NCBI RefSeq assembly: GCF_007559335.1
Contig: NZ_VMBG01000002.1
Span: forward strand, 736,501-800,500
Origin: Rariglobus hedericola
Lineage (GTDB): Bacteria; Verrucomicrobiota; Verrucomicrobiia; Opitutales; Opitutaceae
Direction of reading: 5' to 3'
Length of the DNA stretch: 64,000 nt
Shown here: in pieces, positions 16,771 to 49,808 of the stretch
How the letters are laid out: every line of letters starts with the position of its first letter
Numbering within the stretch: position 1 is the first letter of the stretch
The notes under the pieces: generated by a model
What the model was told of the DNA's origin: nothing
Database searches by the model: none
The model's input: the letters and a program-made list of their open reading frames with translations, nothing else
Made by a program: the position numbers and the translations under genes

Positions 16771-16858
<88 letters not shown>

Positions 16859-43697: not shown

Positions 43698-46025
43698 ATG
43701 AAGACGCCCCTGCGTATTCGTAGTTTGACGACTGTATTGGTCGGCGCCTTGTCCGCCGTTTCTGCGATCGCTGCAACCTATCACGTCAAGCCGGGCGGAA
43801 ATGATCTGGCGGACGGTCTGAGTGATGCCAACGCCTGGGCGACCATCGCCAAGGTCAACGCTACCACGCTGGTCGCGGGTGATCAGGTGTTGTTCAAAGC
43901 CGGCGGCGTTTACAACGATGCCACGCTCGTGCCGTCGGGCTCGGGCACCTCCACCAATCGCATTATTTACAGTGCCTACGGCGCGGGTGCGAAACCGACC
44001 CTGACCACGGCGATCGTGTTGCCATCGTCGGGCTGGACGACGGTGGGCGGCGGCGTTTACAGCCGTCCGCTCGCGACCGAGACGCGCATGGTGACGGTGA
44101 ATAACACCTACATGGTGCGCGCGTTGACGCAGGCGGCTTTGCTCGACGGAGAGTATTTCTGGGATGTGGCGACCGGGACGCTTTACGTGAAAGATCCGGC
44201 CGGCAGCCCGAATACGACGGGGAAAATCTACGAGGCCGCTCAACGCGATCACGTGGTGCATTCAAATCCGACGAAGACGGCAAAAAAACCTTATCAGACT
44301 TTTTCCGGCTTGAGGCTGGAAAAATCCAATCTCGGCCTCGCGGTGCTGGGCACGTATGCGAGCTACTACACGTTTGAGGACTGCGAATTCTTTTTTGCGA
44401 GTTCCAACGGGCAATATGCGTCCGCCGGCGTTCTCTCCAATCTCTGCGACGGACTGCGAGTCGTTGATTCGCGTTTTTCGTGGCTGGAGGGCGACGGCAT
44501 CTATGCGCAGAGCGGCGCCAACGTGGAGATCATCGGCAACGAGATCGACCACCTCTTCGACAAGGGCGGCGACAACGGTCCCGACGGCATTCAGGTGAAC
44601 GGACTAAAGAGCCCTGCAAACAACTTCATCGTGAAGGACAACATCGTGCGGCGTGAAACCAACACGACGGCCAAAGGCTGCATCATTGTGCAGCGCGGCA
44701 CGGGAGGTCTGGTTTCTGGCAACCGGGTTTTCAAGGGCGCGTTCGGCATCGCCGTTTATACCAAGGACACGGTCGTCGAATACAATTACGTCGAAGACAG
44801 TGGCAACGGCAGCGCCTTGCGGATGTGGGAAAACGAAGGTCAGACCAACGTCACGCTGCGTTACAACATCGTGAACGGGAGCATTAACTCTGGCCTCAAC
44901 GTGGGCAACGCCACGTATGCGGCGACTCCGATGGCCAACATACGGATCTACAATAATCTGTTTTATAACACATATTGGGGCGTCGGTGTTTCCGTGCCCG
45001 TCTCGGGCGAATTCCGAAACAACATCATCTGGTCCGACGCCCATGCGTCTCCGCAGCGGCGGTTCACGGTTGGCAGCATCATTGCCGGCCAGACCTTCGT
45101 TTCAGATAACAACATCATCCAGGACAAAGGGACCAACGTGATGGCGAGCTGGCTGGGCACGACCTACAACGATCTGGCGACCTATCAGGCCGGTTCCGGT
45201 CAGGAAGCAAACTCGCTGACGGCATCTCCGGCCTGGGTGTCGCCGGGCTCGGGGGACTTTCATCTGCAGGCCGGTTCGCCGGCAATCAACGCGGGTGCCG
45301 CGCTCGGCGCGACGACCGACTTTGATGGCAATCCGGTTCCGAATGGCGGCGCGACCGATATCGGGCCGCTCGAATACGGCGGCCTGATCGCTTATGAGGG
45401 TTTTGACTACACGGCGGGTTCGCTCACTTCGGCCAACGGCGGACTCGGCTGGTCGGGATCGTGGACGGTCGGCGGAAGCGCGGGCATCACAGAAATCCTG
45501 ACGTGCAGTCATGCGTGGACGGCTTTGCCGGCTACTGGAAACCGTTTCCGAATTTATGACACCGACGGGGCGCATCAGGAAATCAGTCGCACGCTCACCA
45601 AGACATTTGGTGCGATCAGCGAAACCTATTGGCTGTCATTTCTCGTCAAAAAATACTCATCGGGACGCGAAGCGTATCTCGATATGAACGGGTTTGTGTT
45701 CAAGGCGACGAGCGGAGACTGGCAGGTGAAAACTCCGTCCACGAGCTACACGGGCATCACGAGTTCCAATTATGCCGGGCTTCATCTGATTGTCGCTCGA
45801 GTGGATGCGATGGCATCGGGCGACATCGTTTATGTGTGGGTTGATCCGGTGATCGCGTTGGGCGAGCCCTCCGTCGGTAGCGCCGCGGCCACGCGCAGCG
45901 ACCCGGGCTTCACGTTCAACACGGTCAAGATCAAGCACGGTCCTTGGGGCAACTCCTCGCAAAGCAGCGAGTGGGATGAACTCCGCTTCGGCACGTCGTT
46001 CGGCGCGGTCGTATCCGGCCCCTGA
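43698..46025 (+). CDS. Secreted right-handed beta-helix protein, paralogue 1
   Basis: A 775-residue exported protein. The signal peptide ends about residue 26 (SAIA). Residues about 27-560 are a right-handed parallel beta-helix ('TYHVKPGGNDLADGLSDAN' at the start, then many 'YNNLFYNTYWGVG'- and 'NEIDHLFDKGGDNG'-type coils), as in pectate-lyase-like or alginate-lyase-like proteins. After 'DIGPLEYGG' a separate C-terminal domain begins with 'LIAYEGFDYTAGSL', resembling a jelly-roll carbohydrate-binding module common in Verrucomicrobia. It has a strong Shine-Dalgarno GGAGG at 43688-43692, rare in this window. Substrate unknown; likely polysaccharide. Confidence 0.87.
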   Translation: MKTPLRIRSLTTVLVGALSAVSAIAATYHVKPGGNDLADGLSDANAWATIAKVNATTLVAGDQVLFKAGGVYNDATLVPSGSGTSTNRIIYSAYGAGAKPTLTTAIVLPSSGWTTVGGGVYSRPLATETRMVTVNNTYMVRALTQAALLDGEYFWDVATGTLYVKDPAGSPNTTGKIYEAAQRDHVVHSNPTKTAKKPYQTFSGLRLEKSNLGLAVLGTYASYYTFEDCEFFFASSNGQYASAGVLSNLCDGLRVVDSRFSWLEGDGIYAQSGANVEIIGNEIDHLFDKGGDNGPDGIQVNGLKSPANNFIVKDNIVRRETNTTAKGCIIVQRGTGGLVSGNRVFKGAFGIAVYTKDTVVEYNYVEDSGNGSALRMWENEGQTNVTLRYNIVNGSINSGLNVGNATYAATPMANIRIYNNLFYNTYWGVGVSVPVSGEFRNNIIWSDAHASPQRRFTVGSIIAGQTFVSDNNIIQDKGTNVMASWLGTTYNDLATYQAGSGQEANSLTASPAWVSPGSGDFHLQAGSPAINAGAALGATTDFDGNPVPNGGATDIGPLEYGGLIAYEGFDYTAGSLTSANGGLGWSGSWTVGGSAGITEILTCSHAWTALPATGNRFRIYDTDGAHQEISRTLTKTFGAISETYWLSFLVKKYSSGREAYLDMNGFVFKATSGDWQVKTPSTSYTGITSSNYAGLHLIVARVDAMASGDIVYVWVDPVIALGEPSVGSAAATRSDPGFTFNTVKIKHGPWGNSSQSSEWDELRFGTSFGAVVSGP

Positions 46026-46112: not shown

Positions 46113-48449
46113 ATGAAAATGCTGCTGAGTATTCGCAGTTTATCCCTCGTCTTGGCCGGCGCGCTTTCGGCCATGTCTGCTTTCGCCGCAACCTATCATG
46201 TCAAACCGGGCGGCAGTGATCTTGCCGACGGTTTGAGCGACGCCAATGCGTGGGCCACCATCGCCAAGGTTAACGCGGCCTCGCTGGTCGCCGGTGATCA
46301 GGTTCTCTTCAAAGCCGGTGGCGTGTATAGCGATGCCACGCTCGTGCCGTCCCATTCGGGCACGTCCGCCAATCGCATTATCTATGGAGCTTACGGCACC
46401 GGCGCGAAGCCGATCCTGACGACGGCGATCGTGCTGCCGTCCTCGGGATGGACCACGGTGGGCGGTAGCGTTTACAGCCGGCCGCTGCCCGTGCAGACGC
46501 GCATGGTGACGGTGAACAACACCTACATGGTCCGCGCCTTGACGCAGGCGGCTTTGCTTGACGGTCAGTATTTTTGGGATGCAGCGGCCACGACGCTTTA
46601 TGTGAAGGATCCCGCGGGCAGTCCGAATACCACGGGCAAGATCTACGAGGCGGCGCAGCGCAACTACGTCGTGCATTCCAGCACGGGAAAGACCTATCTG
46701 ACTTTTTCCGGTCTGCGCCTCGAGAAGGCCAACTACAATCTGGCTGTCGTGGTGTCGTTTTCCCATCACCACACTTTCGAGAACTGTGAATTTTATTTCG
46801 CCAGTTCGAACGGACAGTTCGCATCCGCCGGCGTCATTGCGGACCGCAGCGACGGTGTTCGTGTTCTTAATTGCCGGCTGGCCTGGTTGGAAGGAGACGG
46901 CATCTACGTGCAAAGCGGGGCGGGCGCGGAGATCATCGGCAACGAGATCGATCACCTGCTTGATGAAGGCGGAGACAACGGTCCGGATTGCATCCAGATC
47001 AACGGCATCAAGAGGCCGATCAGCAACTTCATCATCAAGGACAACGTGGTTCGTCGCGAGAGCAACACGACGAACAAAGGCTGTATTATCGTGGCGGATG
47101 CCTCGGGAGGAACGGGAGGTCTCATTTCTGGAAACCGCGTTTACAAGGGGAAGTTCGGCATCGCTTTTTACACCAAGAACACGGTCGTGGAATACAACTA
47201 CATCGAGGATGCCGGTTCCAACGACGCGTTGCGCAGCTGGGAAAATCTGGGCCAGGAAAACAACACCATCCGCTACAACGTGGTGAACCGCTGTCTGGGC
47301 TCGGGCATTACGATCGGCGCGTATGTCACGAGCCCGGCGGTGGCTCCGCCGCAGGCGAACATCCATGTCTATAACAACGTGTTTTATGACACGCTTTACG
47401 GGGCGAATTTCCGTGTGCTGATGTCGGGCTCATTCCGAAACAACATCATCTGGTCGTCGACCGGAACGATGGCCCGGCGCATGCGATTCACCGGTCCGAT
47501 CGGAACGGGGCCCGGACAGACGTTTGTTTCGGACAACAATATCGTGGAGGACCAGGCCACCGGCGACTTCGCGGAGTGGATGGGAACGGATCATGCGACG
47601 ATCACTGCCTATCGAACTGCGTCAGGTCAGGACACGAACACCGTGACAACCAATCCGCTTTGGGTGAATGCCGCCGGCGGGAATTTTCATCTGCAGACTG
47701 CGTCTCCCGCCATTGATGCCGGCGCATCGTTTGGTTCACTCGTGGATTTCGACGGAAATCCCGTGCCCAGTGGCGGCGCGACCGATATCGGAGCACACGA
47801 ACACGGCGGCTTGCTCGCGTATGAGGGTTTTGACTACACGACCGGCACGCTGACATCGGCAAGTGGTGGCTTGGGCTGGACTGGTTCTTGGACGAGCACC
47901 GGCACGGGAGTAGCGGAGGTGCTCACGGGCAGTCTGGCATGGACGGGTCTTCCCGCCACGGGAAATCATCTGCGCATTTACGATGCCACCGGAGGCAATC
48001 AGGAGATCACGCGCACGTTGACCAAGACATTCGGAGCATTGTCAGAGACCTATTGGATTTCGTTTCTCGCCAAAAAAAGGAATTCCGGCCGCGTGGCGTA
48101 TCTCGATCTGGGCAGCTTTAGTTTCAAGGCCTCCAGCGGCAACTGGCAGGTGAAGACGTCTTCGACGAGTTTTACGGATATCACCGGCTCCAACTACGCG
48201 GGCCTGCATCTGATCGTGGTTCGCGTGGATGCGACGGTCTCGGGCGACACCGTTTATGTCTGGGTCGATCCGGTGGTCGCATCGGGGGAGCCTTCGACAA
48301 CCACGGCGGCGGTGACACTCAGCGATCCCGGGTTTACGTTCAACACGGTGAGCATCAAGCACGGGCCGTTCGGCAACCATACCCAGTCCTGCGAGTGGGA
48401 TGAACTGCGGTTCGGTCAAAGTTTCAACGCGGTGGTGACGGGGCCATAG
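46113..48449 (+). CDS. Secreted right-handed beta-helix protein, paralogue 2
   Basis: A 778-residue close paralogue of the preceding protein, with the same signal peptide, beta-helix and C-terminal 'LLAYEGFDYTTGTL' domain. Most residues in the first 200 positions are identical. Length differences are small indels, for example a shorter loop after 'VVHS' and an added 'ASGGTGG' segment. No Shine-Dalgarno sequence precedes it, unlike paralogue 1. The pair is a tandem duplication, perhaps for dosage or for different substrates. Confidence 0.87.
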   Translation: MKMLLSIRSLSLVLAGALSAMSAFAATYHVKPGGSDLADGLSDANAWATIAKVNAASLVAGDQVLFKAGGVYSDATLVPSHSGTSANRIIYGAYGTGAKPILTTAIVLPSSGWTTVGGSVYSRPLPVQTRMVTVNNTYMVRALTQAALLDGQYFWDAAATTLYVKDPAGSPNTTGKIYEAAQRNYVVHSSTGKTYLTFSGLRLEKANYNLAVVVSFSHHHTFENCEFYFASSNGQFASAGVIADRSDGVRVLNCRLAWLEGDGIYVQSGAGAEIIGNEIDHLLDEGGDNGPDCIQINGIKRPISNFIIKDNVVRRESNTTNKGCIIVADASGGTGGLISGNRVYKGKFGIAFYTKNTVVEYNYIEDAGSNDALRSWENLGQENNTIRYNVVNRCLGSGITIGAYVTSPAVAPPQANIHVYNNVFYDTLYGANFRVLMSGSFRNNIIWSSTGTMARRMRFTGPIGTGPGQTFVSDNNIVEDQATGDFAEWMGTDHATITAYRTASGQDTNTVTTNPLWVNAAGGNFHLQTASPAIDAGASFGSLVDFDGNPVPSGGATDIGAHEHGGLLAYEGFDYTTGTLTSASGGLGWTGSWTSTGTGVAEVLTGSLAWTGLPATGNHLRIYDATGGNQEITRTLTKTFGALSETYWISFLAKKRNSGRVAYLDLGSFSFKASSGNWQVKTSSTSFTDITGSNYAGLHLIVVRVDATVSGDTVYVWVDPVVASGEPSTTTAAVTLSDPGFTFNTVSIKHGPFGNHTQSCEWDELRFGQSFNAVVTGP

Positions 48450-48460
48450 GTTGAGCAGGT

Positions 48461-49462
48461 TTACGCCGCGATCTGTTCCGCGCGCAGAACGCGGGCGCGG
48501 CGCAGGGCGCGGGCGTGGTTGGCGGGGTCGATGTTGGCGCCGGTCAACGCGACCAAGACCCGTTTGCCGGCGAGTGAGGACAGGCGTCCGCTTAAACACG
48601 CGGCGAGCGCGGTGGCACCGGCGCCCTCCAGCGTGACGCCGTGGGCTTCGTGCGCGGCGAGCAACGCGAGGGCGAGGTCGTCTTCGCTCACGGTCACCAC
48701 GTCATCCACGAAGGCGTGCGCATGGGCGAAGGTGTGGGCGCCGGTTTGCGCGACGGCGAGTCCGTCGGCAAGCGAGGGGAGCGTGGCGGTGCGCACGGGA
48801 CGGCCGGCCTGACGCGCGGCGACGAGTCCGGCGGCATGCGCGGGCTCCACGCCGATCACCTGCACCTCGGGGCGCAACGCCTTCACAACGGTCGCGACAC
48901 CGGCGAGCAGTCCGCCGCCGCCGACGGGAACCACAAATGCATCCACGTCGGGTTCGGCGAGCAACGCTTCGAGGGCAAGCGTGCCTTGGCCGGCTATGAC
49001 CGACAGGTCGTCGAAGGGATGGACGTAGGCGAGTCCCTGCTCCACGGCGAGAGCGTGGGCATGAACGGAGGCCTCGTCATAGGTGTCTCCGTGGAGCACG
49101 ACACGGGCGCCGAGCGTATGGCAGCGCGTGGCTTTTACGCGCGGGGCGTTGCGGGGCATGACGACGGTGACGGGCACGCCAAGTTCGCGTCCGTGAAACG
49201 CGAGGCCGAGCGCGTGGTTTCCGGCGGAGGCGGCGATGACGCCGCGGGCGCGTTGAGCGGGTGTGAGCGAGGCGAGGGCATTGCGTGCCCCGCGTTCCTT
49301 GAACGAACCCGTGGCCTGGAGGTAGTCGTGTTTGGCGATGATCTCCATGCCCGCCAGATCGCTAAGGCGCGCCGAGGGCGCGCAAGGAGTGACGCGGACG
49401 CCGCCTGCCAGGCGCGTTTGCGCGTGGAGGACGTCGTCGAGGGTGAGCAGGGATGTGTTCAT
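48461..49462 (-). CDS. ilvA: Threonine ammonia-lyase (PLP-dependent)
   Basis: A 333-residue PLP enzyme that deaminates threonine (or serine) to 2-oxobutanoate. The PLP lysine is in 'YLQATGSFKERGARNALASL', the phosphate loop is 'VPVGGGGLLAGVATVVKAL', and the end has 'VALTGANIDPANHA'. The C-terminal ACT regulatory domain of biosynthetic IlvA is absent, so the length is like catabolic TdcB. However, an isoleucine-rich leader and terminator (49507-49661) sit just upstream, which points to isoleucine-responsive control and hence a biosynthetic role. Start at 49462 (MNTSLLTLDDVLHAQTRLAG); the frame is open upstream across the terminator. Confidence 0.88.
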   Translation of the reverse strand: MNTSLLTLDDVLHAQTRLAGGVRVTPCAPSARLSDLAGMEIIAKHDYLQATGSFKERGARNALASLTPAQRARGVIAASAGNHALGLAFHGRELGVPVTVVMPRNAPRVKATRCHTLGARVVLHGDTYDEASVHAHALAVEQGLAYVHPFDDLSVIAGQGTLALEALLAEPDVDAFVVPVGGGGLLAGVATVVKALRPEVQVIGVEPAHAAGLVAARQAGRPVRTATLPSLADGLAVAQTGAHTFAHAHAFVDDVVTVSEDDLALALLAAHEAHGVTLEGAGATALAACLSGRLSSLAGKRVLVALTGANIDPANHARALRRARVLRAEQIAA

Positions 49463-49506: not shown

Positions 49507-49539
49507 AACAAAAAGCCCCGGGCTGTGAGGCCCGGGGCT
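49507..49539 (-). terminator. Attenuator terminator of the threonine ammonia-lyase gene
   Basis: The minus-strand stem is AGCCCCGGGC with GCCCGGGGCT (plus arms 49514-49523 and 49530-49539), a perfect 10-bp hairpin followed by a T-run (rc of 49507-49513), 45 bases before the ilvA start. Its 5' arm contains CCCGGGCC, which can pair with GGCCCGGG in the leader (49593-49600), as expected of an antiterminator. Confidence 0.82.
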
Positions 49540-49574
49540 GATGGAAATTCGCGTTTAAAAGTGTGATGATGCGT

Positions 49575-49661
49575 TCACGCGATGCGTCCATGCCCGGGCC
49601 GGCGGCTGATAATAATCATGCCAATAATCATGGCGCGGGCGTTGGTGTTGCGGGAGGTCAT
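49575..49661 (-). CDS. Isoleucine leader peptide (28 aa) for threonine ammonia-lyase
   Basis: A 28-residue ORF on the minus strand, starting with ATG at 49661 and containing the run MIIGMIII (residues 11-18), five isoleucine codons in seven (ATT ATT GGC ATG ATT ATT ATC). It ends in Arg-Arg-Pro-Gly-His-Gly-Arg-Ile-Ala. The terminator of the downstream gene follows 35 bases after the stop. This is the arrangement of an ilv/thr-type attenuator, in which ribosome stalling at Ile codons would allow an antiterminator to form. An alternative in-frame ATG at 49685 would add 8 residues. No Shine-Dalgarno sequence. No such peptide is described to my knowledge for this gene. Confidence 0.72.
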   Translation of the reverse strand: MTSRNTNARAMIIGMIIISRRPGHGRIA

Positions 49662-49808
49662 TGCGGTGAAGCGATTACGAACCATGCGGAAATTGGTGGT
49701 GAAAGCAAGGCCGCGGTCCTGCGGGAGCCGTGCGTTCCCTCTCAAAAATAATTCAAAAAATCTTTCAACTCCGGATGATTTTTTGGCAAAGATGAGTAGA
49801 TTAATCAC

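Follow-up and report, generated by a model that had tools for sequence, protein, structure and literature searches.

The 64,000-nucleotide stretch of Rariglobus hedericola DNA analysed here (the window) contains, directly upstream of the threonine ammonia-lyase gene ilvA, a short isoleucine-rich open reading frame (ORF) followed by a terminator-like hairpin. We consider it highly probable (ca. 0.9), judging from sequence comparisons, that this element is an isoleucine-responsive, ribosome-mediated transcription attenuator. Together with its relatives, it gives a concrete candidate regulatory RNA family in Verrucomicrobia.

The leader ORF is located on the minus strand at positions 49575-49661 (ATG at 49661, TGA stop at 49577-49575), comprises 28 codons (MTSRNTNARAMIIGMIIISRRPGHGRIA) and is kept in relatives. 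Five of seven consecutive codons at 49608-49628, the putative regulatory run, specify isoleucine (ATT ATT GGC ATG ATT ATT ATC). Four minus-strand segments can be distinguished around it. Strand 1 (49632-49640), a possible protector seen in the minimum free energy fold, would pair with strand 2 (49600-49592) as long as it is free of a ribosome. Strand 2, the antiterminator strand GGCCCGGG (49593-49600), is separated by 7 nt from the 3′ end of the Ile run and is the exact complement of CCCGGGCC (49536-49529). Strand 3 (49530-49539), the 5′ arm of the terminator, has, according to the fold and to covariation, either strand 2 or strand 4 as its partner, and strand 4 (49510-49523 in the fold) consists of the terminator 3′ arm (49523-49514) and a U-run (49514-49510). 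The whole terminator, AGCCCCGGGC-CTCACA-GCCCGGGGCT (49539-49514), has a 10-bp GC-rich stem with the U-run starting at 49514. The ilvA gene follows at 48461-49462 (minus strand) and encodes a 333-aa protein. The ORF, the Ile run, the antiterminator strand and the terminator had been located in a preliminary description of this DNA, whose coordinates and sequences proved exact to the base. On its other side, ilvA lies tail to tail with the second of two tandem paralogues on the plus strand (43698-46025 and 46113-48449; 775 and 778 residues, 69% identical).

The combination of a short ORF containing five or more Ile codons in seven with a strong terminator downstream is found at this one place in the window and is absent from all 60 dinucleotide shuffles; the terminator alone is unremarkable for such a region (two overlapping terminator-like sites vs. 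1.9 in shuffles). The energies of the competing structures, a comparison proposed in the preliminary description, were calculated in isolated folds and are −23.5 kcal/mol for the terminator (z −5.2) and −31.8 kcal/mol for the antiterminator region (z −4.1); the 166-nt region as a whole folds with −61 kcal/mol (z −3.7). The leader was also compared with 4227 Rfam families, none of which matched it at gathering score (11 weak matches, all below). This bears on the possibility that isoleucine or tRNA-Ile is sensed directly by a T-box or a riboswitch, the leader ORF being incidental. The target genes would fit such a device, and candidate T-boxes upstream of actinobacterial ileS genes are mentioned in PMC1262725. 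The T-box covariance model is absent from the leader's Rfam matches, weak ones included, and no riboswitch family is among them; the modelled span of ca. 140 nt is about half ORF; and the Ile codons are conserved despite T/C variation at the third position. Direct sensing is therefore scarcely credible. The sole Rfam match at gathering score in the window, which is also its sole tRNA, is a tRNA-Ser (GGA) at 16771-16858 on the minus strand.

A search with the IlvA protein covered 252 genomes of the window's family (Opitutaceae), and 30 loci were fetched among the matches listed. Assigned by identity and length, 19 of them carry the window's ilvA type (usually 324-339 residues from the match, the exceptions being L009, with an internal stop, and L026, of 415 residues), and 11 carry a long IlvA of 376-406 residues from the match (L010, L015, L016, L018, L020, L021, L022, L025, L027, L028 and L029). 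Both leader and terminator are present in 18 of the 19 window-type loci; the 19th (L004) starts inside the gene. In the 11 long loci, no leader was found by reading or by model R2. Another leader model, R1, added seven ilvA leaders (L038, L042, L045, L048, L049, L052 and L053), which, being found by a leader model, are selected for having a leader; the gene after the L053 leader (G012:C56) contains internal stops. A further leader, L265 (G042), which was missed by both model-based genome searches, was recognised by reading another row of the protein search. The family total of window-type ilvA genes with a leader is thus 26 (18 from the protein search, L265 and the seven from the leader model), one short-looking row of the protein search (G242:C169) having been left out of the reading. 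Eight of the 90 places scored are not leaders on reading (L100, L118, L125, L127, L129, L130, L132 and L133), and neither is the weak model match L263; L272 (the same place as L155), an ORF with three Ile codons only before a gene of unclear identity, was dropped.

The same class of leader is found before a second gene. Most of the R1 mid-score matches that were fetched precede a gene with the motif YDTTLRDGTQGEGISFSV, and a 70-residue piece of one such product matches citramalate synthase TIGR00977. Citramalate synthase, CimA, provides the other route into 2-oxobutanoate and isoleucine. Reading in two rounds yielded 58 cimA genes with a leader (51 and 7), and TIGR00977 matches at E 1e-100 or better in 57 of the 58 genomes. 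For ilvA and cimA alike, the downstream gene makes the amino acid that the leader codons specify. No genome was seen to have the leader on both genes (26 have it on ilvA, 58 on cimA); simple counting gives a chance of 0.0007 for zero overlap, which is not a fair probability since the genomes are related. By model, 23 of the 26 genomes with an ilvA leader also have cimA. In 14 of these, the region upstream of cimA was read or searched and no leader was found (G000, G209, G214 and L273-L283); in the remaining nine, cimA is taken to be leaderless because the model gave no strong second match, weak second matches being present in some of them. The genome of the window has a leaderless cimA, as do 12 of 13 genomes of its genus (the exception is G215). 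A terminator and no Ile-rich ORF precedes cimA at L288. The leaderless cimA genes L084 and L273-L282 have in common an upstream CTTGCCA box, some 30-37 nt ahead of the start codon, a position that would suit frequent short or absent 5′ leaders in these bacteria.

In a tree of the leaders, the window's clade of ilvA leaders adjoins the cimA leaders with support of 96/92, but a single clade of ilvA leaders is also compatible with the tree (p-AU 0.333), so that their origin may be read either way. One RNA device on two unrelated enzymes that open the same pathway may mark the entry route used by a genome. We regard as an evenly balanced possibility that the element is a portable cassette, which serves only one of the two entry enzymes, has changed its target in evolution and consists of a near-leaderless ORF that is free of a Shine-Dalgarno sequence and contains the antiterminator strand. 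If true, this would imply tight ribosome-RNA polymerase coupling in Verrucomicrobia.

Translation of the leader is suggested by its codons. In 91 leaders (58 before cimA, 26 before ilvA and 7 before ilvA outside the family), 450 Ile triplets fall in the leader frame, compared with 19 and 20 in the two alternatives. The starts, as chosen by the script, are ATG in 68 leaders and GTG in 23, and all three stop codons are used. Ile codons in 75 leaders are ATT 265, ATC 108 and ATA 0 (n = 373), vs. ATT 99, ATC 1093 and ATA 11 (n = 1203) in the downstream genes, so that the share of ATT is 71% vs. 8%; it is higher in the leader in 75 of 75 cases. ATT, being a rare codon, would suit a sensitive stall site; possibly, low-GC codons are instead favoured because they avoid pairing in that stretch.

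A −35-like box, [CT][TCG]GACA, is present within 60 nt upstream of 81 of the 91 leaders vs. 7.5% in shuffles, and in 61 of the 81 it is located 29-37 nt before the start codon; a Shine-Dalgarno core is present in 1 of 91 leaders vs. 6.6% in shuffles. From the position of the box and the usual spacing, transcription should start close to the leader start codon. The window's leader, together with L002, L003, L005 and L006, is without the −35-like box and has CTTGC 37-43 nt before the start codon, which makes the start site in the window less sure. A scan of the window's leader region found no sigma-70 promoter. An in-frame ATG upstream of the window's leader start, at 49685, is absent at the matching place in L002, L003, L005 and L006.

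The preliminary description had held that conserved Ile codons and compensatory changes in relatives would support the proposal, and both were observed. In 73 aligned leaders, 91.9% of terminator cells are paired vs. 85.5% in shuffles. Changes on both sides are seen in 66 cells vs. 20.1 in shuffles, and the covariation score is 0.259 vs. 0.146; none of 500 shuffles was as high by any of these measures. Pairs with double changes number 4 of 10, which 92 of 500 shuffles reach. The complementarity of strands 2 and 3 is kept across sequence classes: CCCGGG/CCCGGG, TCAGGGC/GCCCTGA and, in the ilvD-like L124, GGGCGGC/GCCGCCC. For 80 leaders, the 2:3 duplex formed by a leader's own strands has a mean energy of −16.6 kcal/mol, and none of 10,000 permutations was as good. 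Exchange of strands between the two main classes weakens the duplex by 4 to 5 kcal/mol (−12.0 and −10.9 vs. −17.1 and −15.2 kcal/mol for their own), and swaps inside one class cost about 0.2-0.3 kcal/mol; these being nearly free, the 2:3 covariation rests on few class changes. The longest exact complement in 74 leaders averages 6.8 nt vs. 4.2 nt for shuffled tails, and a complement of at least 6 nt is present in 66 of the 74 vs. 10% of shuffles. Strand 2 is separated from the last Ile codon by 6-12 nt in 66 of 82 leaders. Its match is poor or doubtful in L003, L102, L106, L117, L121, L126, L128 and L134. Alignment A2 omits L102, L115 and L134, and L102 and L134 are also omitted from the 2:3 duplex, exact-complement, folding-state and shuffled-tail tests.

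That the ORF is clearly under reading-frame selection would be expected, too, if the Ile-rich ORF encoded an independent small protein, for example, a membrane peptide, and the hairpin were the terminator of a constitutive small RNA or of an upstream gene; small hydrophobic peptides are common in bacteria. Yet what is conserved is mainly the Ile run and the RNA-pairing segment, and the peptide changes from Pro-Gly (CCCGGG) to Ser-Gly (TCAGGG) where both terminator arms change as well. Moreover, most full-length leaders that were read precede genes of isoleucine or branched-chain synthesis, on two unrelated enzymes; the exceptions to this link are a gene of no assigned function in genus g42 and L259, a His leader before a hisG-like gene. 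A small protein is hence unlikely. The anatomy of the attenuator, its conservation, covariation and reading-frame selection, and its link to isoleucine genes are directly supported by these data.

For the attenuator, we infer the following course of events, from the place where transcription starts, stalling and the strands covered by the ribosome to termination and the isoleucine response. A ribosome following RNA polymerase closely would translate the leader. Under isoleucine shortage, it would stall on the rare ATT/ATC codons and cover strand 1; with strand 1 masked, strand 2 would be free to pair with strand 3, and ilvA would be transcribed. When charged tRNA-Ile is ample, the ribosome would reach the stop codon and block stems nested in the antiterminator, strand 1 would re-pair with strand 2 behind it, and strand 3 would then pair with strand 4, leading to termination before ilvA. 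In relatives, the same cassette would act on cimA, the alternative entry enzyme of isoleucine synthesis. Since attenuation needs a ribosome close behind RNA polymerase, such leaders would be indirect evidence for transcription-translation coupling in Verrucomicrobia, whose relatives include bacteria with unusual cell plans.

Folding was modelled for 74 leaders. When the ribosome was placed, as if stalled, at the first Ile codon of the run and strand 4 was still missing, the antiterminator was formed in 74 of 74; with the ribosome at the stop codon and the whole RNA present, the terminator was formed in 74 of 74. The first at-stop fold was made without any of the RNA that precedes the stop. As long as strand 4 is missing, 64 or 51 of 74 leaders still formed the antiterminator with the ribosome at the stop (12 or 14 nt covered behind the P site), and 55 of 74 formed it at the same stage without a ribosome. 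At least four protector pairs were seen in 64 of 74 leaders, or in 47 by a stricter count (full RNA, no ribosome). In the window, where a ribosome at the stop blocks the stems nested in the antiterminator, the fold before strand 4 has −31.8 kcal/mol in the stalled state vs. −25.2 or −19.4 kcal/mol with the ribosome at the stop, despite more free upstream RNA. When leader tails were shuffled, 67% of controls still formed at least five antiterminator pairs, which weakens stalled-state folding as proof. Once strand 4 is present, 68 of 74 leaders (66 in another count) have the terminator as their best fold even with a stalled ribosome, and timing must therefore decide. In 62 of 82 leaders, the stop codon ends 18 or 20 nt downstream of strand 2 (18 nt in the window), so that a ribosome at the stop would sit past strand 2 and leave it uncovered; the trp-style arrangement, in which the ribosome at the stop covers strand 2, does not agree with this geometry.

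As can be seen, simple folding models separate the stalled and unstalled states weakly. This would be compatible with control through ilvA translation or through a leader-binding protein instead of termination, and with 90 of 91 leader starts being without a Shine-Dalgarno core, translation control in these bacteria is poorly known. Against this, a GC-rich stem followed by a T run is present in all 82 scored leaders (by construction of that search), and the conservation of terminator pairing described above (91.9% of cells) also argues for termination. We therefore consider control by translation or by a protein very improbable and retain transcription attenuation.

Since the window's enzyme has no ACT domain, the preliminary description suggested that transcription control may stand in for feedback by isoleucine. 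The window's IlvA matches Pfam PALP only, threonine ammonia-lyase models being matched below their cut-offs, and no ACT domain was found by Pfam in it or in the others of this type that were scanned (L005, L014, L024 and L026). Two of the long, leaderless IlvA proteins, L016 and L020, were scanned, and both have an ACT-like tail below the Pfam cut-off. The suggestion thus holds insofar as the window enzyme is without ACT and the 11 long IlvA of the family are without a leader. Outside the family, four of seven IlvA were scanned: the leader precedes an IlvA with an ACT-like tail in L150, L151 and L156 (in L151, above the Pfam cut-off), and no ACT was found in L152. Within the family, L121 and L257 encode long IlvA proteins that, judged from sequence and length, are of the E. 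coli type, and have Ile-rich leaders with terminators; strand 2 pairing in L121 is very weak. These five leaders on long ilvA genes, three of them with an ACT-like tail, contradict the leader as a general substitute for ACT feedback.

With R2, 47 of 384 genomes of the class were matched at E 1e-4 or better, and 26 of the 47 lie outside the family. The 14 stronger of these 26 were read; seven are leaders before IlvA, distributed over four families (L149, L150, L151, L152, L153, L156 and L161), and seven are not leaders (L154, L157, L158, L159, L162, L163 and L164). Of the 80 top-ranking named IlvA loci, drawn from many phyla, two have a leader: L178, which lies on the contig of L011, and L176 of Verrucomicrobium sp. 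BvORR106; at L214, the upstream sequence is too short for a judgement. As far as sampled, the element is thus a feature of Verrucomicrobia.

Other leaders were met in the course of these searches. Ile/Val/Leu-rich leaders (such as AAIIIVVVILLTPTSGRHSHS) are present in genus g16 (L124, L254, L260 and L262), before a gene that, by its motif, we take to be dihydroxy-acid dehydratase (ilvD). A short ORF, MALRHHHHHVY, with a terminator in L259 (G140) precedes what is presumably hisG and is probably a classical histidine leader in the window's family. Thr/Ile/Met-rich leaders of the TTIIMMTKANTPWAGGTRR type, with terminators, are found in genus g42 (L080, L123, L252, L256, L258 and L264); in L080, L252, L256 and L258, the next ORF has 122-135 codons and contains FRYCR, a gene of no assigned function. 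Leaders L068, L078, L253, L255 and L261 (the ORF of the last with one Ile only) precede a small gene of ca. 100 codons, perhaps, as a guess, the acetolactate synthase small subunit; a 70-residue piece of the L068 product has no match in NCBIfam. The His, Ile/Val/Leu and Thr/Ile/Met leaders suggest that the strategy is general in Verrucomicrobia.

In titles and abstracts of open-licence literature, we found no attenuator for cimA, for ilvA alone or for Verrucomicrobia, and a term search of the main text of PMC8632094 returned neither Opitutus nor Verrucomicrobia. Within the literature searched, and as far as that search went, the leaders would represent a known kind of regulation, well conserved, with a new phylum, target and distribution. 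The preliminary description had regarded such a leader as undescribed for ilvA, which is too broad: in enteric bacteria, ilvA belongs to the attenuated ilvGMEDA operon. The novelty lies in the phylum, in the position of the leader immediately before ilvA and in its being shared with cimA.

In the enterobacterial ilvL (ilvGMEDA) and ivbL attenuators, a long operon is under the control of a single leader that contains Ile, Val and Leu codons. The leaders described here are similar in having a branched-chain-codon leader, mutually exclusive antiterminator and terminator and predicted control of isoleucine genes including ilvA, and different in that a mainly Ile leader without a Shine-Dalgarno sequence lies directly before ilvA or cimA in another phylum. 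The E. coli trp attenuator likewise has strands 1 to 4 with protector, antiterminator and terminator; its stop codon, however, precedes strand 2, which is covered when the ribosome is at the stop, whereas here strand 2 lies inside the ORF.

The codon run of actinobacterial ilvB leaders reportedly overlaps the terminator, their mode of action being called unclear (PMC1262725), and Streptomyces lividans has IlvL and several leader peptides that are transcribed leaderless (PMC8079986). By description only, these resemble our leaders, being short branched-chain-codon ORFs before or over a terminator; their target, unlike here, is ilvB or ilvBHC. The Staphylococcus aureus ilv attenuator peptide (PMC5794164) also serves branched-chain synthesis and differs in being leucine-rich and in a Firmicute. 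Finally, trpL of Sinorhizobium meliloti is an attenuator ORF (PMC10117765) that is leaderless by data and concerns tryptophan and trpE; in our leaders, too, the start codon seems to be near the transcript start, the leaderless state here being deduced from the promoter-like box.
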